Positions 6,931 through 22,727 of a stretch of 41,215 bases of DNA are shown here, in pieces; the first letter of the stretch is position 1; each line of letters begins with the position of its first letter. The notes beneath the pieces were generated by a model. That model ran no database searches and had not been told where the DNA came from. It saw only the letters and a list, made by a program, of their open reading frames with translations. The DNA is from Coriobacteriia bacterium (GTDB lineage Bacteria > Actinomycetota > Coriobacteriia > Anaerosomatales > Kmv31), in NCBI GenBank assembly GCA_014859305.1, contig JACUUM010000017.1, forward strand, positions 1 through 41,215. The letters run 5' to 3'. The position numbers and the translations under genes are program-made.

Positions 6931-9684
6931 CTACGCGGTCGCTCTTCGCACCCTCACGGGCACGCGCTTGAGCGCGGGGATCTTGGACACGGGGTCCAGA
7001 CGCACGCCGATGACCCGGTTCACCGGGGACCTCGCGTCGTGGATGGACAGGAACACGACACCTGCCGGGGAGCGGCCCGACACACGGACGGGTACCTCCA
7101 GCACGCCGCCTTCGCCGGCCACCTCGACGAGGTCGCCGTCGGTCACGCCGAGGCGCTCGGCATCGTCGGGGTGCATCTCCGCCGCCGCGCCGCCCAGCAC
7201 GGGGCCGAGCGCCGAACGCCGCGTCATCGTGCCCCCGTGGTAGTCGAGCGAGGTGCGTCCGGTCGTGAGCGTCATCTCCATGCCGTCCTGTCCGTCGGGC
7301 GACGTGCGCGCCCGCTGGACGTACTCGACCGCGGCGAACTCGCCCTTGCCCCTGGTGAACGCTTCGACGTGCAGGATCGGGGTACCGGGATGGCCGGAGT
7401 CCGGACACGGCCACTGTATTCCGCCCTGGTCGAGACGGCGGTAGGAGATGCCGGCGTAGATGGGGGTGACGGCGGCGATCTCCCGCATGATCTCGCGTGG
7501 GGAGCGGTAGTGCTCCGGCGCGCCGAGGAGCGTGGAGAGCTCGCTCAGTATCCTCCGGTCCGGCCGCGCGTGACCCGGCGGCGACACCGCCCGACGCAGC
7601 CGCTGCACCCGTCGCTCGGTGTTGGTGAACGTGCCGTTCTTCTCCGCGAAGCACGCCGCCGGCAGGACGACGTCCGCCAGCTCCGCGGTCTCGGTCAAGA
7701 AGACGTCCTGCACCACCAGGAACTCCAGAGAGGACAGCGCCTCGATGACGTGCGACTGATCCGGGTCGGAGAGCACGGGGTTCTCCCCCATCACGTACAT
7801 CGCCTTGAGGTCCCCTTCGCGGGCCGAGGCGAACATCTCGACGAGCGTGAGACCGGGCTCGCGGGGCAGGGAGCGGCCCCACATGCTCTCGAACCGCTGC
7901 ACGGCGCGGGTGTCGGTGACGCGAGCGTAGCCGGGCAGCATGTCCGGCAGGCATCCCATGTCGCAGGCTCCCTGGACGTTGTTCTGGCCGCGCAGCGGGT
8001 TCACGCCCGTTCCCGGCCTGCCGACGTTGCCGGTGAGCATGGCGAGGTCGGCCAGAGCCCGCACCTGAGCGGTCCCCGACTCGTGCTGGGTGACCCCCAT
8101 GCAGTACACGATCGATGCGGCCTCGGCGGACCCGTACGCCTCGGCGGCGCACCGGATGTCCCGTTCGGCCACGCCGGTGATCAGCGAGACGCGCTCTACA
8201 GGGTAGTCGGCGAGCCGCTCGCGAAGCCGCTCGAACCCCTCCGTGCGCGAGGCGATGAACGCCTCGTCCTGCATGCCGGCGTCGAGGATCGCCCGCATGA
8301 TCCCGTTGACGAGCGCCGTGTCGGTACCGGGACGCGGAGCCAGCCACACCTCGGCGTGATCGACGAGGCGGACGCGGCGAGGATCGACCACGACGAGCCG
8401 CGCTCCCTCACGCGCGGCACGCTTCAGCTCCAGCGCCACCACCGGGTGGGTCTCGGTGGTGTTGGAGCCCACGACCAGGATCGTCCGCGCGTTGCGCAGG
8501 TCCGCTATCGGGTTGGTCATCGCCGCGCTGCCGAACGAGGCGGCCAGACCGGCCACCGTCGAGCTGTGTCAAAGGCGGGCGCAATGGTCGATGTTGTTCG
8601 TGCCGATCGCGGTGCGCATGAGCTTCTGGAACAGGAAGTTCTCCTCGTTCGTGCACTTGGCCGACGCCAATCCTCCGATCGCGTCGGGACCGCGGGCTTC
8701 GCGGAGGGCTCGCAGCCGGTCCGCCACCAGAGGCAGGGCCTCGTCCCAGCCGACGGGCACCAACTCACCGTCCCGCCGCACGAGAGGGTCGGTGAGCCGC
8801 TCGGGGTGTCCGATGAAGCCGAAGCCGAAGCGTCCCTTGCCGCAGAGGTTGCCGCCGCTCACGCCCCTGTCCAGCGGCGAGGAGACGCCGACGACCTCCT
8901 GCCCGCGCGTCTCGAGCAGCAGGGTGCACCCGACGCCGCAGTACCCGCAGACCGTCTCCGTGGTCTTCGTCTCCCACATCCTGCCGGCGAAGCGGCGCGA
9001 ACGGGCGGTCAGCGCACCGACCGGGCACGTGGAGACGCACTGCCCGCAGGACTCGCAGCCCACGTCCGTGAGTTCGCGCTCGAACGCCGTTCCCACGCGC
9101 GTCTCGAAGCCGCGACCCACCCAGGCGAGCACCCCCACCGCCTGGACCTCCTCGCATATCCTGATGCACCTGCCGCAGCGCACGCACTTCGCCGGGTCCC
9201 GCAGTATCAGCGCGTCGCGCTCGTCCACGGGGGCCTCGTTGCGTTCCCCGACGTACGGCGTCTCCGTCACCTGCAGCTCATAGGCGGCGTCCTGCAACGC
9301 GCAGGCACCGTTCCTCTCGCAAGTCATGCACTCCATCGCGTGGTCGGACAGGAGCAGCTCGACTATAGTGCGGCGCAGCTCCAGCACCCTCTCGCTGTCC
9401 GTCCTGACGACCATGCCCTCGGCGGCCGGCGTCGAGCAGGAGGCCACGGGACCCCGCGCGCCCTCGACCTCCACCATGCACAGCCTGCACCCCCCCCACG
9501 CCTCCAGCCGGGGGTCGTGGCACAGCGTCGGGACCGGGATGCCCGCCTCGCGGCACACCTCGAGGAGCGAGCTGCCCGCGGCGGCGGTGAGGGTGCGTCC
9601 GTCGACCTCCAGGGTGACGGTCTCGACCGCCGCCGCCGTACCGGACGGTCCTCGGCCGCTCGCCTTCTGCTCGCCGTCGCTCAC
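6931..9684 (-). CDS. fdhA: selenocysteine-containing NAD(P)-linked formate dehydrogenase, catalytic subunit (reads through UGA at 8569-8571)
   Basis: Mo/W-bis-MGD enzyme reducing CO2 to formate (or the reverse), 917 aa when the in-frame UGA at codon 372 is read as selenocysteine. Domains: 2Fe-2S ferredoxin (Cys55/66/69/83), NuoG-like His-Cys cluster (His115, Cys119/122/128), two 4Fe-4S clusters (Cys167/170/173/177 and 210/213/216/220), the catalytic-domain 4Fe-4S (Cys246/249/253/281), molybdopterin core, and C-terminal dinucleotide-binding domain. The residues around the UGA, NNIDHCARL-U-HSSTVAGL, match the active site of E. coli FdhF, and a SECIS hairpin follows. Both flanking frames are intact and family-like, so this is not a frameshift. 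The NuoG-type N-terminus and the neighbouring NuoF- and NuoE-like genes indicate an electron-transferring trimer. The GTG start follows AGGAGG. Confidence 0.95.
8539..8557 (-). promoter_or_regulatory. bacterial SECIS element in fdhA
   Basis: Starting 11 bases after the UGA, GGTGGCC and GGCCGCC form a 7-bp stem (one G-U pair) around a GGTCT loop. The E. coli fdhF SECIS, recognised by SelB, has a closely similar GGUCU apical loop at about this distance. It lies inside the coding sequence, as expected for bacteria. Confidence 0.85.
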
Positions 9685-9703
9685 TCCTCGTCACCTCCTC
9701 GCA

Positions 9704-11530
9704 TCAGGCTCTGACGATGGCCGCCAGCTTGCACTGCGACTCGCAGGCGCCGCAACGGGTGCAGCGCTCCGCGTCTATGACGTAGGGCTCCTTGCGCTCG
9801 CCGGAGATGGCGCCGACGGGACAGACCCGGACGCACGCGCCACAGCCGCGGCAGAGCTCGGCGTCCACCACGTACGTCGCCAGCGCCTTGCAGTAGCCTG
9901 CCCGGCAGCGCCCCTCCTCGATGTGCTCCCAGTACTCCTGGCGGAAGTACCTCAGTGACGTCAGCACGGGGTTGGGCGCGGTCTGACCGAGGCCGCACAG
10001 CGAACCCGCCTTCACCGCGCCCGCGAGACCCTCGAGCAGCTCCAGGTCGCCGTGTGCTCCGCGGCCTTCCACGATACGGGTCACGATCTCGAGCATGCGC
10101 TTCGTGCCGATCCGGCAGGGCACGCACTTGCCGCACGACTCCCGCTGCGTGAACTCGAGGAAGAAGCGGGCGAGGTCGACCATGCAGGTCCCCTGGTCCA
10201 GGACGACCACCCCGCCGGAACCGACGATCGCTCCGGCTTCGGTGAGCGTCTCGAACGCGATCGGGGTGTCGAGCAGCTCGGCTGGGATGCATCCGCCGGA
10301 CGGCCCCCCGATCTGCACCGCCTTGCACTCGCCGTCAGGCACCCCGCCGCCGATCTCCTCGACGAGCTCCCGTAGGGTGGTGGTCCCCATGGGCACCTCG
10401 ACCAGCCCGGCGGTCGTGACTGCCCCGGTCAGGGCGAACACCTTGGTCCCCCGGCTCTGCTCGGTGCCTATCCTGGCGTAGGACTCGGAGCCGTTCAGCA
10501 CGATCCAGGGGACAGTGGCCAGCGTCTCGACGTTGTTCACGCAGGTCGGCTTGCCCCACAGCCCGCTCTGGGCCGGATACGGCGGCCGGATCCTGGGCAT
10601 GCCGCGCCGTCCTTCGATCGAAGCGAGGAGCGCGGTCTCCTCGCCGCATACGAACGCTCCCGCCCCCTCCTTCACCCGGACCTGGAACGAGAACCCCGAG
10701 CCCATCACGTCCTCGCCGAGCAGCCCGCGCTCCTCGGCCTGCTCGATCGCGTGTCTCACCCTCGTCACGGCCAGCGGGTATTCCTCGCGGACGTAGACGT
10801 ACCCCCGCGAGCAGCCCACGGCGTACGCCGCGAGCGCCATGCCCTCCAGGACGGCGTGAGGGTCGCTCTCGAGCACCGCGCGGTCCATGAACGCGCCCGG
10901 GTCACCCTCGTCGCCGTTGCAGATGAAGTACTTGGGCGAGCCGGCCGCGGCCCGTGCCAGGCGCCACTTCGTGCCCGTCGGGAAGCCCGCCCCGCCGCGG
11001 CCGCGCAAGCCCGCGTCGGACACCGTCTGGATCACCTGCTCGGGAGACATGTAGAAGAGACCCAGCCGGAGTGCCGCGTACCCCCCGTGGACGAGCGCGT
11101 CGTCGAGGTCCTCGGGATCGACCATGCCGCAGTTGCGCAGGACGATGCGCGTCTGCCTCCGATTGAACGGCAGTTCGTCGTAGGGCAGCGCCGGTGGGCC
11201 GGCGGGGGCATCGTCCAGGGGCGTCCCGTCGGGCGAGGACGCGAGCCGGCGGACGACGTCGGCGGCGTCGGTGGGCGCGACGCGCGGGAACAGGACGCGC
11301 GCGGGGTCGGCGCGCACGACGGGTCCCTGCTGGCATATCCCGTGACAGCCCGTGCGGACGACGCGGACGCGCCCCTCCCCGTGGACGAGCGCCGCCTCCT
11401 CCAGCGCGGAGGCGACCTCCAGCGAGCCGTTCATCGCGCAGCCGGAGCTCGTGCAGACGTACACGGTGACGACCCGCGTGCTCGGGACCCTCTCCACTGC
11501 GACGTGCGCGACCGCCCTCACCTCACTCAC
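9704..11530 (-). CDS. NuoF/HydB-like NAD(P)H-binding subunit of formate dehydrogenase
   Basis: Flavin-containing electron-input/output subunit, 608 aa. The order is an N-terminal thioredoxin-like 2Fe-2S domain (Cys26/31/62/66), an FMN/NADH-binding Rossmann region with GRGGAGFPTG (177-186), an SLBB segment, the NuoF 4Fe-4S (Cys466/469/472/512), and a C-terminal pair of ferredoxin 4Fe-4S clusters (Cys560/563/566/570 and 590/593/596/600). This layout is that of HydB/HylB in bifurcating hydrogenases and formate dehydrogenases. The GTG start overlaps the TGA of the nuoE-like gene (GTGA), implying translational coupling. The frame is open ~33 codons further but those codons overlap nuoE. NAD versus NADP and true bifurcation with ferredoxin cannot be read from sequence. 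Confidence 0.92.
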   Translation of the reverse strand: MSEVRAVAHVAVERVPSTRVVTVYVCTSSGCAMNGSLEVASALEEAALVHGEGRVRVVRTGCHGICQQGPVVRADPARVLFPRVAPTDAADVVRRLASSPDGTPLDDAPAGPPALPYDELPFNRRQTRIVLRNCGMVDPEDLDDALVHGGYAALRLGLFYMSPEQVIQTVSDAGLRGRGGAGFPTGTKWRLARAAAGSPKYFICNGDEGDPGAFMDRAVLESDPHAVLEGMALAAYAVGCSRGYVYVREEYPLAVTRVRHAIEQAEERGLLGEDVMGSGFSFQVRVKEGAGAFVCGEETALLASIEGRRGMPRIRPPYPAQSGLWGKPTCVNNVETLATVPWIVLNGSESYARIGTEQSRGTKVFALTGAVTTAGLVEVPMGTTTLRELVEEIGGGVPDGECKAVQIGGPSGGCIPAELLDTPIAFETLTEAGAIVGSGGVVVLDQGTCMVDLARFFLEFTQRESCGKCVPCRIGTKRMLEIVTRIVEGRGAHGDLELLEGLAGAVKAGSLCGLGQTAPNPVLTSLRYFRQEYWEHIEEGRCRAGYCKALATYVVDAELCRGCGACVRVCPVGAISGERKEPYVIDAERCTRCGACESQCKLAAIVRA

Positions 11531-11994
11531 CCCTCGTCCCGCAGGTCGGTCACGAGTCCGCGGGCCACGCCGGGCGTGGCGGGACCGTACGTCTTCTCGC
11601 CGACGATCATCACCGGAGCCAGGCCGCAACAGCCCAGGCAGGCGACGGATTCGAGAGAGACGTCACCCTCCTCGGTGGTCTCGCCGAGTTCCACCCCGAG
11701 GACCTCCTGCACCGCCCTGGTGACCTCGGGAGCGCCACGCACGTGGCACGCGGTCCCGTGGCAGATCTTGACGACGACACCGCCGTGCGGCTCGAAGCGG
11801 AAGCGCGAGTAGAACGTGGCGACGCCATAGACGGCCGCCGGAGTGACTCCTCGGGCCTCCGCGATGCGGTCGAGGACCTCCTCGGGCAGGAAGCCGAAGA
11901 TGTGCTGCGCCTCCTGGAGCACGGCGATGAGACCGCCCCGGTCTTCCCCATGCCGGAGCAGCACCTCCTCGAGGAGTCTCGTCCGCTCGTCCAT
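11527..11994 (-). CDS. NuoE/HydC-like 2Fe-2S subunit of formate dehydrogenase
   Basis: A thioredoxin-fold [2Fe-2S] protein, 155 aa, the small partner of NuoF-type subunits. The cluster ligands are Cys78, Cys83, Cys119 and Cys123, in the usual CxxxxC...CxxxC spacing. The helical N-terminus with QEAQHIFGFLPEEV is typical of the family. I take the ATG at 11994, which has AGGAGG six bases upstream. An open frame extends 70 codons further but overlaps acsE and looks non-coding. It is the first of three genes (E, F, catalytic) that should form one formate dehydrogenase trimer, and it follows acsE by 38 bp. Confidence 0.93.
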   Translation of the reverse strand: MDERTRLLEEVLLRHGEDRGGLIAVLQEAQHIFGFLPEEVLDRIAEARGVTPAAVYGVATFYSRFRFEPHGGVVVKICHGTACHVRGAPEVTRAVQEVLGVELGETTEEGDVSLESVACLGCCGLAPVMIVGEKTYGPATPGVARGLVTDLRDEG

Positions 11995-12032
11995 CGCGTG
12001 CCTCCTACGCGTCGCCGGCTCGATCCGCCGGC

Positions 12033-12812
12033 TCATTGCAGATACGAGTGACAATACAGGGTCTCGTTGCTCAGGATGCGCATCGACTTCAGGGCCGCCG
12101 TCAGCCCCTCGTCGAGAGGATCCGCGATCATCGCGTCGAGGCCGGCCTGCGCGAGCATCACGGCGTACGCCGCGGCCAGAGGGGTGCGCACCTCCGGCGG
12201 GCAACCGTTGTAGATGTTGGAGAGGCCGACGACGGTCTTCATCTGCGGCTCGCTGAGCTGCTTGAACAGCCGGATGGCCTCCAGGGCCTCCGTGGCCTGC
12301 TGCTGTGCGACGCAGACGGGCAGCAGCAGCGGGTCCAGGTACACGCGATCCAGCGGCACGCCGAACTCCTGGGCCGCGGCCATGATCTCGGCCGCGGCAG
12401 CGACGCGCTCTCCGCAGTCGCGGCTGACGCCCGCCTCGGTCATGGCCAGCCCGATGATGTCCGCCTCGTACTGTGCGGCCAGGGGCATCAGGCGCTCCAG
12501 CCGCGCGCGCTCAGCGGAGGTCGAGTTGATCATCGGGCGCTTGCGGCACGCCCGCAGGCCCGCCTCTATCGCCTCGACGTTGGTGGTGTCCAGGCAGAGC
12601 CGCACGTCCACGGCGTCCTGGACCGTGTTCACCAGCCACTCCATCATCTCAGGTCCGCCCCTGGTCGCCGGCCCGAGGTTCAGGTCCAGCATCTCCGCGC
12701 CCGCTTCCGCCTGCTCGGTCGCGGCCTCCCGGATCGGGACGGGGTCACGTTCCTTGATCGCCGGGCCGATCGTCTTGCTCATCACGTTGATCTTCTCGCC
12801 GATGACCAGCAT
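12033..12812 (-). CDS. acsE: methyltetrahydrofolate:corrinoid iron-sulfur protein methyltransferase
   Basis: Transfers the methyl group of CH3-THF to the cobalt of the corrinoid iron-sulfur protein. It is a 259-aa TIM barrel of the pterin-binding family (Moorella MeTr is 262). Folate-pocket residues fall at the same numbers as in the Moorella enzyme as I recall them: Asp75, Asn96, Asp160 and Asn199 (within GLSNIYNG). The N-terminal LVIGEKIN block is also family-typical. It lies 12 bp after a cooC-like gene and before the formate dehydrogenase genes. The start is an ATG. Confidence 0.95.
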   Translation of the reverse strand: MLVIGEKINVMSKTIGPAIKERDPVPIREAATEQAEAGAEMLDLNLGPATRGGPEMMEWLVNTVQDAVDVRLCLDTTNVEAIEAGLRACRKRPMINSTSAERARLERLMPLAAQYEADIIGLAMTEAGVSRDCGERVAAAAEIMAAAQEFGVPLDRVYLDPLLLPVCVAQQQATEALEAIRLFKQLSEPQMKTVVGLSNIYNGCPPEVRTPLAAAYAVMLAQAGLDAMIADPLDEGLTAALKSMRILSNETLYCHSYLQ

Positions 12813-12824
12813 GTCCGCCTCCGC

Positions 12825-13601
12825 TCACGTCCGCTCGATGTGATCGATGATCCCGCCCGCCAGCGTCCTGACCTTCTCCGCGAACGTCGCGTCGGCGTCC
12901 AGCGGTGTCCGCCGTCCGCGGTCCGCCATGCGGATCGCGTCGCTGTCGGGTAGCCACGCGAAAGGCTCGTCGCCGAGCGCCGCGCGGAGATACTCCTCGT
13001 CCTCGGCCGAGCGCACCTTGTTGCACACGACCACGACCCGGGGCACGCCGAGGTCGCTCGCGAGCCTGCGGACCGCCCCGGCCGTCGCGACGCTGCGCGA
13101 CCCAGGCTCGACGACTACGACGAACGCGTCCACGGCGTCCGCCGTCCCGCGCCCGAGGTGTTCCAGGCCCGCCTCCATGTCCATGACGACGACCGATTCC
13201 TCGTCGGCCAGCAGCCGGCTGACCACGGCGCGGAGGAAGACGCTCTCGGCGCACATGCAGCCGCTCCCGCCGCGCTCGACCGTGCCCATCCGCAGGATGC
13301 GGACGCCGTCGACCTCCACGGAGTAGGCGTCGGGGATGTCGTCCACCTCCGGGTCCAGCCGGAACATCCCGCCCGCGCCCGGCCGTGCCCCGGTACGCTC
13401 CTCGATGACGTCGGCCAGATGCGACAGGGGAAGGCAGCGTTCGGCCTCCTCGGGCGTCGCACCCAGGGCTTCGGCGAGGTTCGCGTCCGGGTCCGCGTCC
13501 ACGGCGTAGACGCGGCGGCCGTCCCGCGCCCAGGTCAGAGCGAGCGCCGCGGCGAGCGTGGTCTTGCCCACGCCTCCCTTGCCTGAGACCGCGATCCTCA
13601 C
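12825..13601 (-). CDS. CooC-type nickel-insertion ATPase (copy 1, metF side)
   Basis: MinD/SIMIBI-class P-loop ATPase, 258 aa, of the family that loads nickel into CO dehydrogenase or acetyl-CoA synthase. It has a deviant Walker A GKGGVGKT (7-14), a VDADPDANL block (34-42), and a Cys115-Met-Cys117 pair. That pair matches the CxC which in CooC binds Ni/Zn at the dimer interface. Its GTG start lies 11 bases after GAGGAGG, and the gene follows metF by 19 bp. A second paralogue sits at 24563-25366. Which one serves AcsA and which AcsB (AcsF role) cannot be settled here. Confidence 0.9.
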   Translation of the reverse strand: MRIAVSGKGGVGKTTLAAALALTWARDGRRVYAVDADPDANLAEALGATPEEAERCLPLSHLADVIEERTGARPGAGGMFRLDPEVDDIPDAYSVEVDGVRILRMGTVERGGSGCMCAESVFLRAVVSRLLADEESVVVMDMEAGLEHLGRGTADAVDAFVVVVEPGSRSVATAGAVRRLASDLGVPRVVVVCNKVRSAEDEEYLRAALGDEPFAWLPDSDAIRMADRGRRTPLDADATFAEKVRTLAGGIIDHIERT

Positions 13602-13620
13602 CGCTTACGCTCGCCTCCTC

Positions 13621-14487
13621 TCACAGGCCCGCCGCGTCGAGCACGTCCACGACCCGATGCTCCGCACCCACCGCCATCACGTGAACCCCGTCGCAGCAGG
13701 GCTGCAGCGCACGGATGATCTCCCCCGCGATGCGGATGCCGGTCTCGGCCGGCTTGTCCGACTCCTCCAGCCGACGGACGAACGCCTCCGGCACGCGGAC
13801 GCCCGGGACCTTCTCGTTCAGGAAGACCGCCATCCTTGCGGAGCGGAGCAGCAGGATCCCGGCCAGGACGGGCACGCCGTGTCCCCGCGCGCGCTCCATG
13901 AACGCCTCGAACCGGTCCACGTCGTAGACGGCCTGCGTCTGGAAGAAGCGGGCACCCGCGCGGACCTTCTTCTCGAACTTGCGCATCTGGGGCTCCAGCG
14001 GCTCGGCCTCCGGGGTCACGACGGCCCCGGCGAACAGCTCCGGCGCCTGGGAGAGCTCGCCGCCTGCCATGTCCCGTCCCTCGTTGAGCGACGAGATCGC
14101 CGAGAGCAGCTGCACGGACTCCAGGTCGTAGACGGGGCACGCGCCTGCATGGTCGCCGGCGCGCGGGTGGTCGCCCGTGAGGGCGAGCACGTTGCGCACT
14201 CCCAGCGCCCATACGCCGAGGAGATCCGATTGCAGCGCCAGCCTGTTGCGGTCGCGGCACGTCACCTGGAAGACCGTCTCGTGCCCGCGCTCCTGGAGGA
14301 GCCCGCACGCGGCCAGCGTGCTCATCCGCATGACGGCTGACTGGTTGTCGGTCACGTTGATCGCCGTCACTCGGCCGCGGAGGCGCTCGGCGACCTCGAG
14401 CATCCTCTCGACGTCGACACCCTTGGGCGGACCGACCTCGGCCGTGACCGCGAACCGCCCGCTCTCCAGCGTCTCGCGCAGGCTCAC
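13621..14487 (-). CDS. metF: 5,10-methylene-THF reductase
   Basis: FAD-dependent TIM barrel reducing methylene-THF to methyl-THF, 288 aa, close to the short acetogen form (about 290-310). Recognisable blocks include AVTAEVGPPKG near the N-terminus, TDNQSAVMRMS, ALTGDHPRAGDH (folate/FAD region) and FFQTQAVYD. The GTG start overlaps the stop of metV by 4 bp and follows GAGGAGG. In acetogens MetF works with the zinc/iron-sulfur protein MetV rather than directly with NADH. The adjacent flavoprotein at 15146-17167 may feed the pair with electrons (inference). Confidence 0.93.
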   Translation of the reverse strand: MSLRETLESGRFAVTAEVGPPKGVDVERMLEVAERLRGRVTAINVTDNQSAVMRMSTLAACGLLQERGHETVFQVTCRDRNRLALQSDLLGVWALGVRNVLALTGDHPRAGDHAGACPVYDLESVQLLSAISSLNEGRDMAGGELSQAPELFAGAVVTPEAEPLEPQMRKFEKKVRAGARFFQTQAVYDVDRFEAFMERARGHGVPVLAGILLLRSARMAVFLNEKVPGVRVPEAFVRRLEESDKPAETGIRIAGEIIRALQPCCDGVHVMAVGAEHRVVDVLDAAGL

Positions 14488-15149
14488 GACGCCTCCTCCT
14501 CCTCCTCGCTCCACAGGTCGAGCGTCCCGCACGAGGAGCGCCGAGAGTGGTCCTTTGGCGGCAGGATGGTGTCGATCGAGGAGATGCGCCCGAGGGACTC
14601 CAGACGGGCGTGTATGTCCACCCAGGCGCACGGCCTGCGGGGGTCGACCTCGCACATGCCCGCCTCCATGCCGCCGCAGGGGCCGTTGAGGATCCCTTTC
14701 GCGCAGCGAGCCACGGGGCATATGCCGGCTGTCTCGCCGAGGACGCAGTCGCCGCAGGCGGCGCATTCCTCGCGCCAGCTCGCCACACCTCGTGCCGCTC
14801 CGATGAACAGCGTGTCGAGCACCGGATACACGGGACGGCCGAGCATCTCCGCCATGAGCGCCACGCCGGCTCCGCAGGCCAGCGATCCCACGGCGTCGAG
14901 ATCCTCGACGTCGAGTTGGGACACGTACTCGGGCTCGCACTGGCGCTGCAGCACCTCGGTGCGGAACCGCCTCTCGCGGCCGTTACCCCCGTCCGCGATG
15001 TGCAGGGCGGTCGCCAGCGACTCCACCTCCTTGGCCCCGCCGGCGAGCGAGACGGCCGCGCACGTGTTGCACCCCACGAGCGCCACCCGCTCATGGCCCT
15101 CGATCATCCTGCGTATGTCCCCGAGCGGCTTCCTGCGGACGACGATCAC
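14484..15149 (-). CDS. metV: MetV, partner of methylene-THF reductase
   Basis: A 221-aa cysteine-rich protein of the MTHFR C-terminal family, the small subunit of acetogenic methylene-THF reductase. An N-terminal VGCNTC segment and a C-terminal Cys-rich region (CAACGDCVLG, CPVARC, LNGPCGGM, GMCEV) supply many metal or Fe-S ligands; Moorella and Acetobacterium MetV carry iron-sulfur or zinc sites here. A run of glutamates lies near the C-terminus. The GTG start overlaps the previous stop (GTGA), and the stop overlaps metF, so the three genes are translationally coupled. Confidence 0.9.
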   Translation of the reverse strand: MIVVRRKPLGDIRRMIEGHERVALVGCNTCAAVSLAGGAKEVESLATALHIADGGNGRERRFRTEVLQRQCEPEYVSQLDVEDLDAVGSLACGAGVALMAEMLGRPVYPVLDTLFIGAARGVASWREECAACGDCVLGETAGICPVARCAKGILNGPCGGMEAGMCEVDPRRPCAWVDIHARLESLGRISSIDTILPPKDHSRRSSCGTLDLWSEEEEEAS

Positions 15150-17167
15150 GGCGCGTCACCTCCCGCGTGGGCCAGGGTGCCGGGGGCGGCGACGGGATAG
15201 CCGAAAGCGGCCGACTCCTCCGGCCGCACCACCAGGCGGCCCTCGAACCCGTACTCCCTCGCGGCGCGAGCGATGCGGCCGAGGTGCGCAACGACCAGGT
15301 CCGAAGCCTCGCCGTGAGCGCACTGCCGGCCCAGGCACGGGGCGAAGGTCACCCTGCCGGCGCCCATGTCGAGCGCGGCGAACGCCGCGTTCTCGCTGAC
15401 CTGCAGCAGGCAGGGCACCACGACGGCGTCCCCGGTCAGCGTGAGCGCCGAGACGGAGCAGGCGAACACGACCTCCTCGCGACCCCGTCCGGCACCCTCC
15501 TCGGGAGCAGGCGCGGATCCGCCGGGGAGTCGGGACGGGAGCTCCAGTTGCAGGTACGGCGAGAGCGAGATGGCCTGCGACGGGCACGCCGAGGCGCACG
15601 CGCCACACGCCCGGCACTCCTCGGGAGGCATGTACGGGTAGCCGTCCGCACCGACCCGGGGCACCTGGTACGGGCAGACCCTCACACACGTGAGGCAGAC
15701 CGCGCACTTGGCGGTACTCACGCGCGCGCCGCCGGCACAGGAGAGACAGCGGTGCGCCTCGAGACGCGTCTGGTTCTGGTCGAACCCGCCCTCCACTTCC
15801 TCGAAGCAGGCCACGCGCGCCTCGGGGCACAGACGAGAGACCTTCACGCGTCCAGCCAGACGAAGGTGCTCCGCCACCCGAGCCGGCACCTCGCCGAGCG
15901 CCGGCGGATCGGCGTCGAGCGCGCGCAGCGGCTCCGTGTCACCGGAGAGCGACGCGTGGACCGCCGCCGCGGCCCGGTGCCCCGAGCCGATCGCGTCCAC
16001 GACGCGCGCCGGCCCCGACAGCGCGTCACCCGCGGCGTAGATGCCGGGGAGGGTCTCCTGCGTTCGCTCCTCGGTGGAGATGAGCCCGCGCGGGCCGACC
16101 TCCGCCTCCAGCCCCTCCAGCTCGGCGGCCTGCCCGACCGCCAGCACCACCGTGTCGGCCTGCAGGAACGCCGTGTCGCTCTCGTCGAACCGGGGGGCGA
16201 AGCGCCCGCTCTCGTCGAAGACCGCCACGCACCTCTTCACCTCGACGCCCTCGGCGCCCTGCGTCCCGCGCACGGCCACGGGACCGAAGCCGGCGTGGAT
16301 CTCCACCCCCTCCTCCTCGGCCTCGCTCACCTCCTGGGCGGAGGCCGGCATCTCGTCGCGCTGCTCGAGGCAGACCATCCGCACGGAGCCGGCCCCGAGG
16401 CGCACCGCCGTCCTCGCCGCGTCGACGGCCACGTTGCCTCCGCCGATCACCACCACGGAGCCTTCCAGCTCCGGGGGGCGCCGGTCGTTGACCGAGCCGA
16501 GGAACTGCATGGCCCCGACGACGCCGGGCAGGTCCGCGCCGTCCACGGGCAGCAGGCGGCTGGCCTGCAGCCCCGGTGCGAGCACGACCGCCTGGAACGT
16601 CTCGACGAGCCACTCCATGTCGATGTCCCGTCCGATCCGGGCGTTCGTCACGGCCCTCACGCCGCTGTCCAGGACGTGCTGGATGTCCCGCATGAGCTGT
16701 TCCTTGGGCAGCCGGTACGGGGGGATGCCGTAGCGCAGCATGCCACCGAGCTCGGGACGCGCCTCGAACAGGAACACGCGGTAGCCCAGGCGCACCAGGT
16801 CGTACGCGGCGGTGAGCCCTGCGGGTCCGGAGCCCACGACGGCGACCTGCGTGGCCTGTTCCAGCTTCTGCTTCGGTCGAGGATACCGGCCGTGGTCGGC
16901 GACCGCGCGCTTCACGGCCGCGATCGCCAGGGACTCGTCCAGCGCGCGTCGCCGGCACGCGTCCTCGCACGGGTGCTCGCACACGCGGCCGCACACGGCC
17001 GGCAGCGGGTTGTTCTCCAGGACCACCGCCAGTGCCTCGTCGAAACGGCCTTCGGAGGCGAGCGCGAGGTACCGCGGCACGTCCACGCGGGCCGGACATG
17101 CCGCCCGGCACGGGGACCAGACCTCCGTAGGCGGTGACGGCACCATGATCCCATCGAGTCCGAGCAT
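15146..17167 (-). CDS. GltD/NfnB-like flavoprotein with two ferredoxin clusters and MvhD-like C-terminus
   Basis: A 673-aa electron-transfer flavoprotein. It begins with a GltD/DPYD-like Fe-S domain (Cys20/24, 59/63/67/71). Then come FAD-binding GSGPAG (112-117) and NAD(P)-binding GGGNVA (242-247) Rossmann domains with an AAGDAL motif, two 4Fe-4S ferredoxin clusters (Cys488/491/494/498 and 518/521/524/528), and a C-terminal ~70-residue region with four cysteines (570, 586, 611, 616). The last resembles the MvhD/FlpD 2Fe-2S domain that docks on Hdr complexes. It sits between acsC and metV with a 4-bp overlap to metV, so I infer it supplies electrons to MetFV or ties this step to NAD(P)H and ferredoxin. 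The start is uncertain: GTG 17176 or ATG 17167; GGGGTGG is better spaced for the latter. Confidence 0.8.
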   Translation of the reverse strand: MLGLDGIMVPSPPTEVWSPCRAACPARVDVPRYLALASEGRFDEALAVVLENNPLPAVCGRVCEHPCEDACRRRALDESLAIAAVKRAVADHGRYPRPKQKLEQATQVAVVGSGPAGLTAAYDLVRLGYRVFLFEARPELGGMLRYGIPPYRLPKEQLMRDIQHVLDSGVRAVTNARIGRDIDMEWLVETFQAVVLAPGLQASRLLPVDGADLPGVVGAMQFLGSVNDRRPPELEGSVVVIGGGNVAVDAARTAVRLGAGSVRMVCLEQRDEMPASAQEVSEAEEEGVEIHAGFGPVAVRGTQGAEGVEVKRCVAVFDESGRFAPRFDESDTAFLQADTVVLAVGQAAELEGLEAEVGPRGLISTEERTQETLPGIYAAGDALSGPARVVDAIGSGHRAAAAVHASLSGDTEPLRALDADPPALGEVPARVAEHLRLAGRVKVSRLCPEARVACFEEVEGGFDQNQTRLEAHRCLSCAGGARVSTAKCAVCLTCVRVCPYQVPRVGADGYPYMPPEECRACGACASACPSQAISLSPYLQLELPSRLPGGSAPAPEEGAGRGREEVVFACSVSALTLTGDAVVVPCLLQVSENAAFAALDMGAGRVTFAPCLGRQCAHGEASDLVVAHLGRIARAAREYGFEGRLVVRPEESAAFGYPVAAPGTLAHAGGDAP

Positions 17168-17178
17168 CCCAACCACCC

Positions 17179-18537
17179 CTAGGCCGTCGTCTGGAGCTGT
17201 CTCAGGAACGCGGGTATGTCAGCGGCTTCCGCGGGGCCCACGGTCACTTCCCAGCTGTCGCCGAGGCACTCCGCGAGCTCGCCGCTGATCTGTGCGACGA
17301 GCCCGGGGATGATCACCCGCCGGTGCGACAGCCGGTCCGTGACGTCGCTCCCCTTGAGGAAGGCGGCGATGGAATCGGGGACGAACTTGCCCGCCGCCCA
17401 CGCGGTGAGCACGGAGAGCCCCTCGGCGTCCACCACGCCGAGGTGCGCGGGGATCCCGCTGGCCTCCACCTCGGAGGAGACGATGAAGTACGAGAGCGAG
17501 AAGTTCGTAGTGACGAGCAGGGGCGCATCGGCATCCGGCGAGCCGATGTCGTAGACGCGCTGCTCGACCTGCATCGGGCGCTGGGGATCCGTGTACAGGT
17601 TCTGCCTGAGCACCAGCAGCGGCAGCATCCGCCAGGGCTCGGCCCCGGAGAGCACGACGATCCCCGCGTACTTGGCGACGTGCGTCGCGGCGTACATCGC
17701 CTCGAGCATGGGGTCGCCGCCGGAGTGAAGCGCCGGGAAGGTGATGACGGGGTAGCCCAGCGCCCGGAACTTCCGCTCCAGGGCCGAGCGACGGATGAAG
17801 ACGAGGTCGCGCAACCCGTCCGCGGCCGTCGCCGAGCCGGGGTCGAGCACGAGGTCCTTGCATCCGGCCTCCGCGGCCCGTTCCGCCGTCGCGGCAAGGG
17901 AGGCAAGGTCGCCGGTGCCGCGCAGCGCGAGAGGGCACTCGTGGCGCTTGGCGAGCTCCGCCATCGCGTCCAGGCTCTCCGCGGTGGCCCCGTGCAGCAG
18001 CGGCCGGGACGCGGCGGCCTCGGACAGCGCCGCCTCCATCTCCGCCGCGGCCTCCGCGGAGAGCACGAGCGGCAGGTCGGTGAGCGACGAGACGCGCGAG
18101 ACGACCTCCCGGAAGCGCGCCGCCTCCCCCGAGGACCGCACGACGAGGCAGCTCACCGACAGGTGCTGCTGCACGCGCTCGAAGCCCAGCGAGTCCGCCT
18201 CGCGCACCCGGGCCTCGATCTCCTCGTCCGGCGACGCCGCGTCGACGAGCACGCCGAAGGCGGTCGGGTTGACGAAGGTGCGGTCGTGACGGTACAACAC
18301 CGTCTCCTCGCCCACCTTGAAGGCGCGCTCCCCGACGCCGACGGTGACGCCTCGGATGGGCGGCGCGCTGGCGTCGGAGAGCTCCGCGGCAGCCTCCTCC
18401 GACACGTGGGGACAGGCCGTGAGCTCCGCCTGACTGGCGGCGAGCTTCATGGCGAACGCCAGGCAGGTCGGCACGCCGCAGTCCCCGCAGTTGGTCTTCG
18501 GGAGCTTCTTGAAGATGTCCAGTCCGCTCAGTGCCAT
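17179..18537 (-). CDS. acsC: corrinoid iron-sulfur protein, large subunit
   Basis: Carries the methyl group from AcsE to acetyl-CoA synthase on a cobamide. It is 452 aa (Moorella 446). The N-terminal 4Fe-4S domain has Cys17/20/25/42 in TNCGDCGVPTC, the TIM barrel occupies about 95-320, and the C-terminal third is the B12-binding domain. It pairs with AcsD, which is encoded five kilobases upstream in the same operon. An ATG start lies in a 58-bp gap after acsB. Confidence 0.96.
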   Translation of the reverse strand: MALSGLDIFKKLPKTNCGDCGVPTCLAFAMKLAASQAELTACPHVSEEAAAELSDASAPPIRGVTVGVGERAFKVGEETVLYRHDRTFVNPTAFGVLVDAASPDEEIEARVREADSLGFERVQQHLSVSCLVVRSSGEAARFREVVSRVSSLTDLPLVLSAEAAAEMEAALSEAAASRPLLHGATAESLDAMAELAKRHECPLALRGTGDLASLAATAERAAEAGCKDLVLDPGSATAADGLRDLVFIRRSALERKFRALGYPVITFPALHSGGDPMLEAMYAATHVAKYAGIVVLSGAEPWRMLPLLVLRQNLYTDPQRPMQVEQRVYDIGSPDADAPLLVTTNFSLSYFIVSSEVEASGIPAHLGVVDAEGLSVLTAWAAGKFVPDSIAAFLKGSDVTDRLSHRRVIIPGLVAQISGELAECLGDSWEVTVGPAEAADIPAFLRQLQTTA

Positions 18538-18595: not shown

Positions 18596-20776
18596 TCAGA
18601 ACAGCGGGTCCATCGTCAGTGCAGGGTGGCCCACCTCGGTCATGAACTCGAGGACCGCCTCCTCGGTCTCGCCGACGCTCTCGTCGGCGATCATGTCGAG
18701 GAACTCCGGCGTGCCCAGCTCCTCGCAGCGACGCTGGAGCTGGGGCCGCAGGGCCTCCTTCAACTCGCTCGTCATCCATGCCACGCGGTGCAGACCGCCT
18801 TCGGCCTGGATGAACTTCTTCGAGCTGACGTAGCCTCGCCCGATGCCCATGAACCCCGGCATCTGCACGCCGCCGCCGACCGTGCCCGCCAGGGTGGAGA
18901 ACTTCATGCCGCACGGCGTCATGCCGGAGTGCTCGCGGTTGACGATCATCACGCCGTTGCACGAGGGCAGGACGGCGACGATGCACATGAAGCAGCCGCA
19001 GGACGTCATCGGGTGCTCCATGAGCGAGTAGGCGTTGAAGCGCTCGACGGTGCGGTTGGAACGCTCGTGCACGAACTCGTTGATGCCGGCCCACTGTCCG
19101 GTCCGGAGGTCGATGGTCTCGCCCTTGGGCACCGGCTGGTTCGGACCGGAGGGGTTGAGCTCGTAGGAGGCCTTCCCGTCGAGCCAGTTGTACGCCCCGC
19201 ACAGCCCCAGCCGCTCCGGAGTGATCATGCAGATGTGGTTGGGTGCGAAGCTCTGGCACAGGCTGCAGGAGTAGAAGTCCTCCACCGACTCGTCGGTGAG
19301 ACCGGCCATCCGCGCGTCGCGGGCCTCGTAGGACTCGCGCGCCTCAGCCATCACGCGCTCGACGTCCTCGGCGCGCGTGAACACCGTCACCTCGACCTTG
19401 TCGATGATCGCCGAGAACTCCTCGAGCAGCTTCGCCCGCAGGATCTCGCCGAGGTGCGCCAGCCTGAAGCCCTTCTGGAACGCGGCGTTGGACACGCGCA
19501 TCCACACCATGTCGCGCTGCCCGATGTGCAACACGCCCTCGGCGTAGTTGATCAGGTGGTGGAACTGGCGCTCGACGACCGGCTCGAAATCGGACTGCAT
19601 CTTGCGCCCCGCGACCGTGACCAAGAGGCCCAGCGGCAACTTCGACCCGGCCTCGACGCCGTCGAGGTCGGGCCCCTCGACGTGGATGCGGCCGTCGGTC
19701 ACCTCGCTGGAATCGCGCACGCTCAGCCACTCGAAGGCCGGGGAGCGACCGCCTCCCATCTCGGCGTACGTGTCCTCCTTGCGGATGCGCTCGCCCTCGA
19801 AGGCCGGGCTGTAGGCCACCGGGATCGGTATCTCGGTCACCTTGATCTTGAGCCCGCGCACCTCGATGGCCCGCTGCACGATCTCGTCGAGAGGGATGTT
19901 CGACACGACGTGCTCGTACGTGCACACGCCCGTCGGAAGGATCTCGGGTATGTCGCTGTCGGCGATCGTCGGGAATCCGTAGGAGATGGCGCCGGCGGCG
20001 GTGGCGTACCACTCGTCGGTCACCTCGCCCAGCGCCATGACGAACGCGAAGACGCGGTTCTTGTTGTAGCGCAGGATGCGCTCGTAGTCGCCCGGCGCGA
20101 TACCGCCGAAGGCCATCGCCGCCCGCGTGGCGAAGCCCAGGGAGTAGATGTGGGCGGTGATCTCCTTGCCGAAGGGGACGAGCCGTGTGTCCCAGCCCAG
20201 CTGCACTCCTTCCTCGGCGAGCTGCTCCGCGAAGGACGTGCCGCGATGGTGGCCGGCCATGAACACGTACAGGCCCTTCTCCTGCATCTCGCGAGCGAGC
20301 TTCGCGGCGGTCGCCGCATCCGGCGCGGTGCCCGCGACGGCCGCGAAGCCGGGCGCGGAACCGTCCACGAACTCCACGCCCTTGGCGCGCATGATCACGT
20401 CGTCGGCGGCTCCCAGCCATATGCCGTCGACCGGAGACGGGCCCGTGACGTACTTGAGCGCCTCCAGCAGCTCTTCGGCGAAGAGCGCCGCGATGCCGGC
20501 GTCCAGCGTGCCGCCCAGGTAGGGCAGCCAAACGCGCTCCGCCGGCGCGTCGGGCAGGAGCTCGCGCGCCATGTCCACCACGAGGTCCATGTCCGAGAGG
20601 CGTTCCACCTTCTCCCCGCTGAGCCCGTGGATGACGGGCAGGTAGTAGGCGGTGTTGGGGAACTCGATCCGGGTGTCGGCGGACAGCGACTCCTTGGCGG
20701 CGGCGACGGCCGAGGCGGCGCGCTCCACGAGCTCGTGGGCGCCGCCGATGGCCGAGGCGGCGATGATCCTAGACAT
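18596..20776 (-). CDS. acsB: acetyl-CoA synthase (CODH/ACS alpha subunit)
   Basis: Condenses the corrinoid-bound methyl group, CO from CODH and CoA into acetyl-CoA at the Ni-Ni-4Fe4S A-cluster. It is 726 aa (Moorella 729) and includes the full ~310-residue N-terminal domain that binds CODH, so it is the bacterial form. The A-cluster ligands are Cys504, Cys507, Cys516, Cys526 and the Cys593-Gly-Cys595 pair. The start overlaps the end of acsA by 8 bp, consistent with tightly coupled synthesis of the two subunits. Confidence 0.98.
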   Translation of the reverse strand: MSRIIAASAIGGAHELVERAASAVAAAKESLSADTRIEFPNTAYYLPVIHGLSGEKVERLSDMDLVVDMARELLPDAPAERVWLPYLGGTLDAGIAALFAEELLEALKYVTGPSPVDGIWLGAADDVIMRAKGVEFVDGSAPGFAAVAGTAPDAATAAKLAREMQEKGLYVFMAGHHRGTSFAEQLAEEGVQLGWDTRLVPFGKEITAHIYSLGFATRAAMAFGGIAPGDYERILRYNKNRVFAFVMALGEVTDEWYATAAGAISYGFPTIADSDIPEILPTGVCTYEHVVSNIPLDEIVQRAIEVRGLKIKVTEIPIPVAYSPAFEGERIRKEDTYAEMGGGRSPAFEWLSVRDSSEVTDGRIHVEGPDLDGVEAGSKLPLGLLVTVAGRKMQSDFEPVVERQFHHLINYAEGVLHIGQRDMVWMRVSNAAFQKGFRLAHLGEILRAKLLEEFSAIIDKVEVTVFTRAEDVERVMAEARESYEARDARMAGLTDESVEDFYSCSLCQSFAPNHICMITPERLGLCGAYNWLDGKASYELNPSGPNQPVPKGETIDLRTGQWAGINEFVHERSNRTVERFNAYSLMEHPMTSCGCFMCIVAVLPSCNGVMIVNREHSGMTPCGMKFSTLAGTVGGGVQMPGFMGIGRGYVSSKKFIQAEGGLHRVAWMTSELKEALRPQLQRRCEELGTPEFLDMIADESVGETEEAVLEFMTEVGHPALTMDPLF

Positions 20777-22727
20777 CGAGCTCCCTCCTCATCTGCATGT
20801 CGTAGAGGACGCGCTCGGCGGGGACGTCGATGCCCAGGGCCGCCCGCTTGGCGTCGATATGGTCCAGGGCGCTGGTCACGATGTCCGCCGGTTCCGAGAT
20901 GAACGCGAGCTTGCCGCCGACCTGCCCTTCCCACCCGTCGAGCATGTGCCGCACGACCTCGTCGCTGCCGCCCACCGGGGAACCCACGCCGCCGAAGATG
21001 ACGTACGCCCCCGATGCGACGCAGTACGTGGCGATCTCGAGGGCCTTCTCGCTGTACCACTCGGGGCAGATGCCCACGGCGGGGAGATCCGAGATGTCCT
21101 CGCCCAGGCCGCCCTCCTCGACGACCTCGGAGAGGATCGTCAGGATCCTCGAGTTGTCCACGCAGGAGCCGAGGTGCAGGACGGGCGGTATGCCGACCGT
21201 GTCGCACACCTCCCGCAGCCCCGGCCCCGCCGCCTCCATCGTCTCGGGGGCGAGCAGACCGTGCTTGCCGCCGGCGATCGCCGCGCAGCCGGTGGCGACG
21301 ACGAGGACGTCGTTCGCGATGAGCTCCCGGACGACGCCGACTATGCCGGCATCATGGGGGACCCGCGGGTTGTTGCACCCGACGACGGCGGCGAGACCGC
21401 GGATGCGGCCGTTCGCCACGTTGTCGTTCAGCGGCCTGAACGACGCGCGCAGCTTCCCGCCGAGCATGTAGCGGATGTACTCGTGGGAGAAGCCGGCGAC
21501 GAGCTCGCTCGAGTGTGCGGGGATACGCACCTCGCCTCGGTTCGCGTAGTTGGCGATCGCCGTGCGTACGATCTCGCGCGCCACCTCCAGGGGGCGCTCC
21601 TCGTCCAGCTCGACGTGGATGGCCCCTCCGCCCAGCTTCGCCTTCGGAGACGTGCTGATGAGCTTCGTGTGGAAGTGGCCGGCCACCTCGCCGAGGCCCT
21701 GGAACACGCACTGCACGTCGACGACCATCACCTCGACCGCGCCGGTCAGGATCGCGAGCTCCTGCTGGAGCGTGTTGCCCGCCGGCGGGACACCCTGCCG
21801 CATGAGCACCTCGTTGGACGTGCAGCAGATCCCCGCGAGGTTGATCCCGGCGGCGCCGGCACCCCTGGCGAGCTCGATCATCCCGGGCTCCCGCGCCGCC
21901 TGCACGACCATGGTCGACAGGAGCGGCTCGTGACCGTGGATGATGATGTTGACGTGGTCGTCCTTCAGCACGCCGAGGTTCGCCGAACTGCGGAGCGCGG
22001 TCGGCGTGCCGAACAGCACGTCCTGCAGGTCCGTCGCGAGCATCGACCCGCCCCAGCCACTGGAGAGCGCCGTCCGCATGGCCGCCGTCAGGATGTTCTC
22101 GTAGTCCTGGTCCGTTCCCGGCCCGGTGCGGTGCATCAGCTCCACCACCTCGCGGTCCACGCCGCGAGGCGCGATCCCCAGCTTGCGCCAGATCTCCTGG
22201 CGCTTCTTGGGCGCCCGCGCAAGGTAGGCGAGCTCGCCGGTCTGCTTGCCGAACTCGGCGAGGGCGCGTTCGGCGACCTCGCGGGCGAGCGCGGCGACGT
22301 CCTTGCCATCCGACTCCACGCCGAGGTAGCCGGCGACGCGGTACAGCTTGACCTCGTCGGCGACGGCCACGCCCTCGAGCCCGCCCTCCGCGGCCGCGCT
22401 CAGCGCGATCGCGACGTCCCGCCCGTGGTCGGAGTGGGCCGATGCCCCCGCCGCCACCTTGCGGGCGAAGTTGCGCGCCGCGACCGTGGCAAGGGTGGCA
22501 CCGCACACGCCGCGCTTGGCCTCCTTGTCCTTGCCCCCGAAGCGGCATGGACCCATGCCGCAGTACTGGCAGCACGCTCCCTCGGCGCCGGTGGGGCAGG
22601 GCTTCATCTGCTCGGTGCGGGAGAACATCGTGGAGATGCCCTCACGCTCGGCGACCTCGAGCATCTCCAGGGTCGCGGGGTCGATGCTGCGCGGCCCCGC
22701 ACCCTCGATCGTCGTCGGCTCGGTCAT
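20769..22727 (-). CDS. acsA: carbon monoxide dehydrogenase (CODH/ACS beta subunit)
   Basis: Ni-Fe-S enzyme reducing CO2 to CO and passing the CO through a tunnel to AcsB. It is 652 aa. The N-terminal cysteines for clusters D and B lie in the CPTGAEGACCQYCGMGPC region (44-61). C-cluster ligands, by comparison with CooS/CODH-II, are His266, Cys302 (or the adjacent Cys301), Cys340, Cys451, Cys481 and Cys522. All are present, so the enzyme should be active. It follows acsD by 28 bp and overlaps acsB. Confidence 0.98.
   Translation of the reverse strand: MTEPTTIEGAGPRSIDPATLEMLEVAEREGISTMFSRTEQMKPCPTGAEGACCQYCGMGPCRFGGKDKEAKRGVCGATLATVAARNFARKVAAGASAHSDHGRDVAIALSAAAEGGLEGVAVADEVKLYRVAGYLGVESDGKDVAALAREVAERALAEFGKQTGELAYLARAPKKRQEIWRKLGIAPRGVDREVVELMHRTGPGTDQDYENILTAAMRTALSSGWGGSMLATDLQDVLFGTPTALRSSANLGVLKDDHVNIIIHGHEPLLSTMVVQAAREPGMIELARGAGAAGINLAGICCTSNEVLMRQGVPPAGNTLQQELAILTGAVEVMVVDVQCVFQGLGEVAGHFHTKLISTSPKAKLGGGAIHVELDEERPLEVAREIVRTAIANYANRGEVRIPAHSSELVAGFSHEYIRYMLGGKLRASFRPLNDNVANGRIRGLAAVVGCNNPRVPHDAGIVGVVRELIANDVLVVATGCAAIAGGKHGLLAPETMEAAGPGLREVCDTVGIPPVLHLGSCVDNSRILTILSEVVEEGGLGEDISDLPAVGICPEWYSEKALEIATYCVASGAYVIFGGVGSPVGGSDEVVRHMLDGWEGQVGGKLAFISEPADIVTSALDHIDAKRAALGIDVPAERVLYDMQMRRELDV

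Follow-up and report, generated by a model that had tools for sequence, protein, structure and literature searches.

It is still debated how energy conservation is tied to the reduction of methylene-tetrahydrofolate (methylene-THF). In vitro, MetVF on its own takes ferredoxin as donor, and by this route growth on H2 + CO2 would come at the expense of ATP (PMC8760232). The electron-input modules known for methylene-THF reductases (MTHFRs) are none at all, RnfC2 or HdrABC-MvhD (PMC8760232; PMC9430772). The stretch of DNA analysed here, hereafter the window, comprises 41,215 nucleotides of contig JACUUM010000017.1 from a Coriobacteriia bacterium (GCA_014859305.1). In its Wood-Ljungdahl operon a single gene between acsC and metV encodes a fusion of a GltD-type flavin core, a ferredoxin domain (Fd) and an MvhD domain, which raises the question of what this protein does for MetVF. 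From sequence comparison we consider it probable (about 0.68) that the fusion is the NAD(P)H-oxidising electron-input subunit of a MetVF-type MTHFR, and that transfer through it is most likely linear. The evidence comprises sequences, mostly from draft genomes, and a survey of the family within the order and across the Actinomycetota.

Gene arrangement in the window

The operon runs in the order fhs, RACo, folD, acsD (a CdhD match at 22.8-23.7 kb), CODH, acsB, acsC, fusion, metV, metF, cooC, acsE, a NuoE-like gene, a NuoF-like gene and formate dehydrogenase. On the reverse strand, the CO dehydrogenase catalytic subunit occupies 20769..22727, acsB (acetyl-CoA synthase) 18596..20776 and acsC (corrinoid Fe-S protein large subunit) 17179..18537; the fusion follows at 15146..17176 and is succeeded, on the same strand, by metV (14484..15149, an MTHFR C-terminal/DUF5981 protein), metF (13621..14490, methylene-THF reductase), a CooC-like ATPase (12825..13601) and the acsE methyltransferase (12033..12812). 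Pfam matches (CdhD and FeS for acsC, DUF5981 for metV, MTHFR at 2.7e-44 for metF) confirm the position between acsC and metVF given in the initial annotation, and the overlap with metV that it described is the 4-nt GTGA at 15146-15149; on the other side, 2 nt separate the end of acsC from the GTG of the fusion. The same annotation ran the gene from 15146 to 17167. The 15146 end holds, while 17167 is an in-frame ATG (M4) within an open reading frame that reaches a GTG at 17176 and encodes 676 amino acids. A plausible AGGGG Shine-Dalgarno sequence lies 8 nt upstream of the ATG, and either start codon is possible.

At the end of the operon, the NuoE-like (11530-12204) and NuoF-like (9704-11629) genes lie beside a NuoG-like formate dehydrogenase gene (6931-9714, reverse strand), and together they form an NAD-linked, HydBC/StnAB-like formate dehydrogenase. 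An in-frame TGA in the NuoG-like gene ('ARLUHSS', about 8569-8571) probably encodes selenocysteine.

Domain architecture of the fusion protein

Pfam matches agree with the GltD/NfnB-like core, N-terminal Fe-S domain and two ferredoxin clusters first proposed for this protein. All features described below are encoded on the reverse strand. The N-terminal helical Fe-S domain (Fer4_20, 16889..17113; Pfam 7e-18, residues 22-96) carries Cys23, 27, 62, 66, 70 and 74, and all of these except Cys62 are kept in 33/33 family members. The FAD/NAD(P)-binding core of the GltD/NfnB/StnC type (15941..16864) is recognised by Pfam (Pyr_redox_2, 8e-32, residues 110-399), by structure comparison and in an AlphaFold model with pLDDT mostly above 90; the model is confident for this core only and poor for the Fd and MvhD parts. 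The 2x[4Fe-4S] ferredoxin domain (15554..15727; Fer4_9, 1e-6, residues 490-536) resembles in sequence the C-terminal Fd of HdrA, and its eight cysteines are invariant in the 15 sequences of the order, bar one position in one sequence.

The C-terminus had been thought to resemble MvhD/FlpD, and the domain search bears this out. Across the region 15224..15472, which holds Cys573, 589, 614 and 619, a Pfam scan of the full-length protein gave FlpD at 6e-4 and 20.2 bits, under the curated cut-off of 22.3 (PF02662); the tail scanned alone gave 24.7 bits, over that cut-off. The tails of relatives score 42.7 bits in a sister sequence and 59 to 91.8 bits in other phylum members. A profile of 13 tails found MvhD chains of Hdr-Mvh complexes among solved structures, with E from 5e-9 (7bkb_F) to 3e-5, and nothing other than MvhD chains below E 0.7. 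The orthologues of the order keep all four cysteines (15/15). In the wider family the fourth is absent from 7/33 members, so a [2Fe-2S] relay through MvhD is not universal. These seven (L144, L155, L157, L159, L163, L165 and L169, all of f43) have a CSEDDDGHF-type sequence where that cysteine is gone, and their [2Fe-2S] cluster may be lost or altered.

Among solved structures the GltD core comes closest to the NfnABC large subunits and StnC, and NfnB ranks behind them. At the position where NfnB has a Glu ligand to the proximal [4Fe-4S] cluster, the fusion has Lys89 (16910..16912; K170 in StnC), and Lys occurs there in 33/33 family members. Arg155, the counterpart of the NfnB Arg at the N5-contact position, is likewise conserved in 33/33. 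After the second Rossmann strand, Cys-Leu-Glu (residues 269-271, 16364..16372; 30/33 members) stands where the NADPH-dependent relatives compared have Tyr-Arg-Arg. An RCLSC motif (Cys477 and Cys480, 15737..15751), present in 15/15 sequences of the order and 33/33 of the family, supplies two cysteines that are possible ligands of a cluster in the GltD domain.

Conservation and linkage to metV

Other genomes of the order contain 14 full-length orthologues at 44-49% identity, and all 14 sit between acsC and metV. Within the order acsB was found in 14 of 69 genomes, 13 of which also have the fusion; in the remaining one (G068) acsB lies at a contig edge. Two genomes (G100 and G144) have the fusion and no acsB match, on short contigs where acsC adjoins the fusion. 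An in-frame TGA in G266 and G280, considered as a selenocysteine codon, proved to be a normal stop.

Across the phylum we examined 33 more family loci, drawn from many families. The gene directly downstream is metV in 45 of 51 loci; in three the contig ends first and three are paralogues. The latter (L182, L187 and L191) match only the GltD-Fd part and lack metV, and they were set aside and left out of the adjacency count, which for the 48 family loci proper gives metV next in 45/45 not ended by a contig edge. The conserved linkage to metVF expected by the initial annotation is therefore found both in the order and in the phylum, and it holds also where acsC is not seen (L184 and L158). Of the 92 acsB-positive genomes in the phylum sample, about two thirds show no strong match to the fusion, and MetVF also occurs without it. 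A scan of genome contigs returned mostly GltD-Fd paralogues, among which metF or metVF lies nearby only in L014 and L012.

One GltD-Fd protein of the genome that contains the window has an N-terminal extension and is encoded within a complex I (nuo-type) operon (L130, about 8226-10742, C4); similar proteins occur in most genomes of the order.

Exchange of modules between acsC and metV

In two loci (L198 and L211) the slot between acsC and metV begins with an HdrA core with Fd, followed by MvhD, metV, metF, HdrC and HdrB. Another locus (L154) has a split arrangement, GltD-Fd plus a separate MvhD gene (FlpD 104.9 bits), and L171 has GltD-Fd-MvhD in the slot and HdrCB after metF; in seven loci of the Actinomycetota the slot is empty. 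In the MetV tree all seven empty-slot sequences group in a clade of their own (100/100), and the two Hdr-slot MetVs nest among 42 GltD-slot MetVs, from which it follows that HdrA-MvhD and GltD-Fd-MvhD have been exchanged within one MetV lineage. Both the exchange and the tree support the earlier suggestion that a single polypeptide could stand in for HdrABC-MvhD. That suggestion named Moorella as the counterpart, correctly for HdrABC-MvhD; the RnfC2-like subunits also ascribed to Moorella belong to the Acetobacterium/Blautia type III enzyme (PMC8760232).

A locus from the Desulfobacterales (L014) encodes a 1355-aa GltD-HdrA protein followed by mvhD-metV-metF. The fusion aligns to residues 37-502 and 1281-1346 of this protein (GltD core 41% identical, Fd 45% identical), skipping the HdrA core. 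Of four HdrA loci compared, three encode a C-terminal Fd that matches the Fd segment of the fusion at 36-50% identity (E about 1e-12 to 1e-16); the fourth HdrA locus and other GltD-Fd proteins match it at E 1e-5 or worse. Since the alignment skips the HdrA core and the Fd segment is HdrA-like, we read the fusion as the Fd-MvhD end of an Hdr system attached to a flavin core of the GltD type. The mvhD gene of L014 (about 13458-13898, between GltD-HdrA and metV) contains an in-frame TGA (FCCNYUGYSAADLAG), and its product is a probable selenocysteine protein.

Comparison with known systems

The type IV (Hdr-type) MTHFR of Moorella thermoacetica and Sporomusa ovata (MetVF with HdrCBA and MvhD) shares with the fusion system MetVF, MvhD and an HdrA-like C-terminal Fd, and in related phylum members it takes the same acsC-metV slot. 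In contrast to type IV, the fusion lacks both an HdrA flavin core and neighbouring HdrBC genes, and its 676-aa chain unites GltD, Fd and MvhD. GltD domains are themselves known in HdrA proteins, both in Moorella (PMC9430772) and as an insertion in archaeal type III HdrA (PMC12054007); however, type III HdrA and the GltD-HdrA of L014 keep the HdrA flavin core (L014 residues about 503-1280) that the fusion lacks. Type III MTHFR (RnfC2-MetVF of Acetobacterium woodii) likewise has a dedicated NADH-type input subunit adjoining metVF, although RnfC2 is an FMN protein of the NuoF/RnfC type whereas the fusion is composed of GltD-type FAD, Fd and MvhD domains. No RnfC2-like subunit lies beside metVF in this genome, where Complex1_51K occurs only in the rnf operon of C1 and in the NuoF-like gene of the formate dehydrogenase.

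Sporomusa StnC and the NfnABC large subunit resemble the fusion in having GltD fused to Fe-S domains, with Lys at the proximal-cluster position and GltD as an NAD(P)H entry coupled to an Fe-S wire. They differ in that the fusion has no NuoG-like domain, no StnAB module directly beside it and CLE rather than YRR, and its partner would be MetVF. A study of serpentinites records gltD near actinobacterial acs, as well as an hdrA-mvhD-metVF-hdrCB cluster, and in the portion of that study available to us a GltD-Fd-MvhD fusion is not described (PMC7325909). Our literature search, of incomplete coverage, found no described class with GltD, Fd and MvhD beside metVF.

A model for electron input to MetVF

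We propose that NAD(P)H, more likely NADH, would reduce the FAD of the GltD core. Electrons would leave the FAD one at a time through the cluster or clusters of the GltD domain, then travel by way of the HdrA-like Fd domain, with its two [4Fe-4S] clusters, and of MvhD into the MetV clusters, and from there to the flavin of MetF, which would reduce methylene-THF to methyl-THF. The fusion would thereby fill the slot and the role of the Moorella-type HdrABC-MvhD, with a GltD flavin core in place of that of HdrA, which makes linear transfer, without bifurcation, the most likely mode. The domains, gene order, conservation and slot exchange described above are direct observations; complex formation, the donor, the path and direction of the electrons and the lack of bifurcation are what we infer. 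The donor is probably NADH, because CLE replaces the Tyr-Arg-Arg of the NADPH-dependent relatives. The glycine-rich motif of the fusion is GxGxxA, a motif often read as NADP(H), and since this points the other way we hold the preference for NADH loosely. There is a precedent in A. woodii, whose MetVF takes NADH once the NADH module RnfC2 is added (PMC8760232).

The initial annotation proposed an electron-confurcating or NAD(P)H-ferredoxin-linked reductase complex. On a bifurcating or confurcating reading the GltD FAD would split the electrons of two NADH between methylene-THF (by way of Fd, MvhD and MetV) and ferredoxin (by way of the GltD-domain clusters), or do the reverse in methyl-THF oxidation. 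The FAD of the homologous NfnB bifurcates, type IV MTHFRs are suspected of bifurcating (PMC8760232), and an rnf operon in the genome (L178, 6295-11380, C1; RnfC, D, G, a membrane subunit and a B-like gene) could use the reduced ferredoxin; the same operon means that NADH and ferredoxin pools can be connected elsewhere. The conserved Arg at the N5 position accords with bifurcation, and the FAD site taken alone leaves room for it, but StnC also has this Arg, which makes the residue uninformative. Given that the HdrA TrxR-type flavin core, with L014 as reference, has no counterpart in the fusion, that no gene of the NfnA or Hyd/StnAB type adjoins the fusion (the direct neighbours are acsC and metV), that no HdrB or HdrC lies alongside, that the closest solved relatives are StnC and the NfnABC large subunits, and that the invariant Lys is shared with StnC, whose GltD FAD was shown to be non-bifurcating (PMC10482914), we find bifurcation or confurcation unsupported and think it unlikely. 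It is equally doubtful that the fusion defines a fifth acetogenic MTHFR type, widespread in the Actinomycetota, in which the GltD FAD couples NADH oxidation to the reduction of both methylene-THF and ferredoxin; if true, methylene-THF reduction would be energy-conserving with a single-chain input module in place of HdrABC-MvhD. Elsewhere in the genome, full-length HdrA was not found, with weak partial matches only, at C6, and CCG-domain proteins occur only at C1 and C19. A 574-aa HdrA-like/Fd/MvhD protein (L138, 6981-8705, C6) is encoded immediately ahead of genes for the small and large subunits of a [NiFe]-hydrogenase-like enzyme.

The fusion might instead shuttle electrons among ferredoxin, NAD(P)H and MetVF, or dock MetVF to Rnf, to CODH/ACS or to the formate dehydrogenase of the operon. 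Isolated MetVF takes reduced ferredoxin (PMC8760232), the MvhD of Sporomusa has MetF, HdrA and HdrB as interaction partners and associates with the membrane more than any other subunit (PMC9430772), and CODH and the NuoE/NuoF/FdhA set share the operon. Against this, a complete GltD nucleotide and FAD core favours an NAD(P)H donor and the fusion is tied specifically to metV, even without a visible acsC, so we regard such a role as quite improbable. It is hardly credible that the fusion is the small subunit of glutamate synthase, or some other NAD(P)H dehydrogenase of general function, and lies in the acs-met operon by chance, as the automatic annotation names (GltD/PRK12771-type) and a figure legend placing gltD among the genes near actinobacterial acs (PMC7325909) might suggest. 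Linkage to metV at every assessable locus (45/45), restriction of the fusion within the order to acs-bearing genomes, the MvhD domain, exchange with HdrA-MvhD and a separate GOGAT-type cluster elsewhere in the genome all speak against it. The CCG-domain protein at C19 adjoins glutamate synthase genes: an HdrB-HdrC-like fusion gene (L139, 8092-9519) lies beside a multi-gene glutamate synthase cluster there, and in a Chloroflexi locus (L012) HdrC and HdrB lie beside the same kind of cluster.

Implications

An electron-input subunit for MetVF made of GltD, Fd and MvhD would be a further MTHFR type beside the three inputs known. The Hdr-type MTHFR complex has resisted purification, and a three-gene version consisting of an input subunit, MetV and MetF would lend itself much more readily to expression and assay than the Moorella enzyme with its six subunits. 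That HdrABC-MvhD and GltD-Fd-MvhD replace one another within one MetV lineage amounts to a natural experiment on what the HdrA flavin core contributes. Because the fusion occupies the slot of the large HdrABC-MvhD set of other phylum members, it may represent a more compact form of an energy-coupling step that is under debate.
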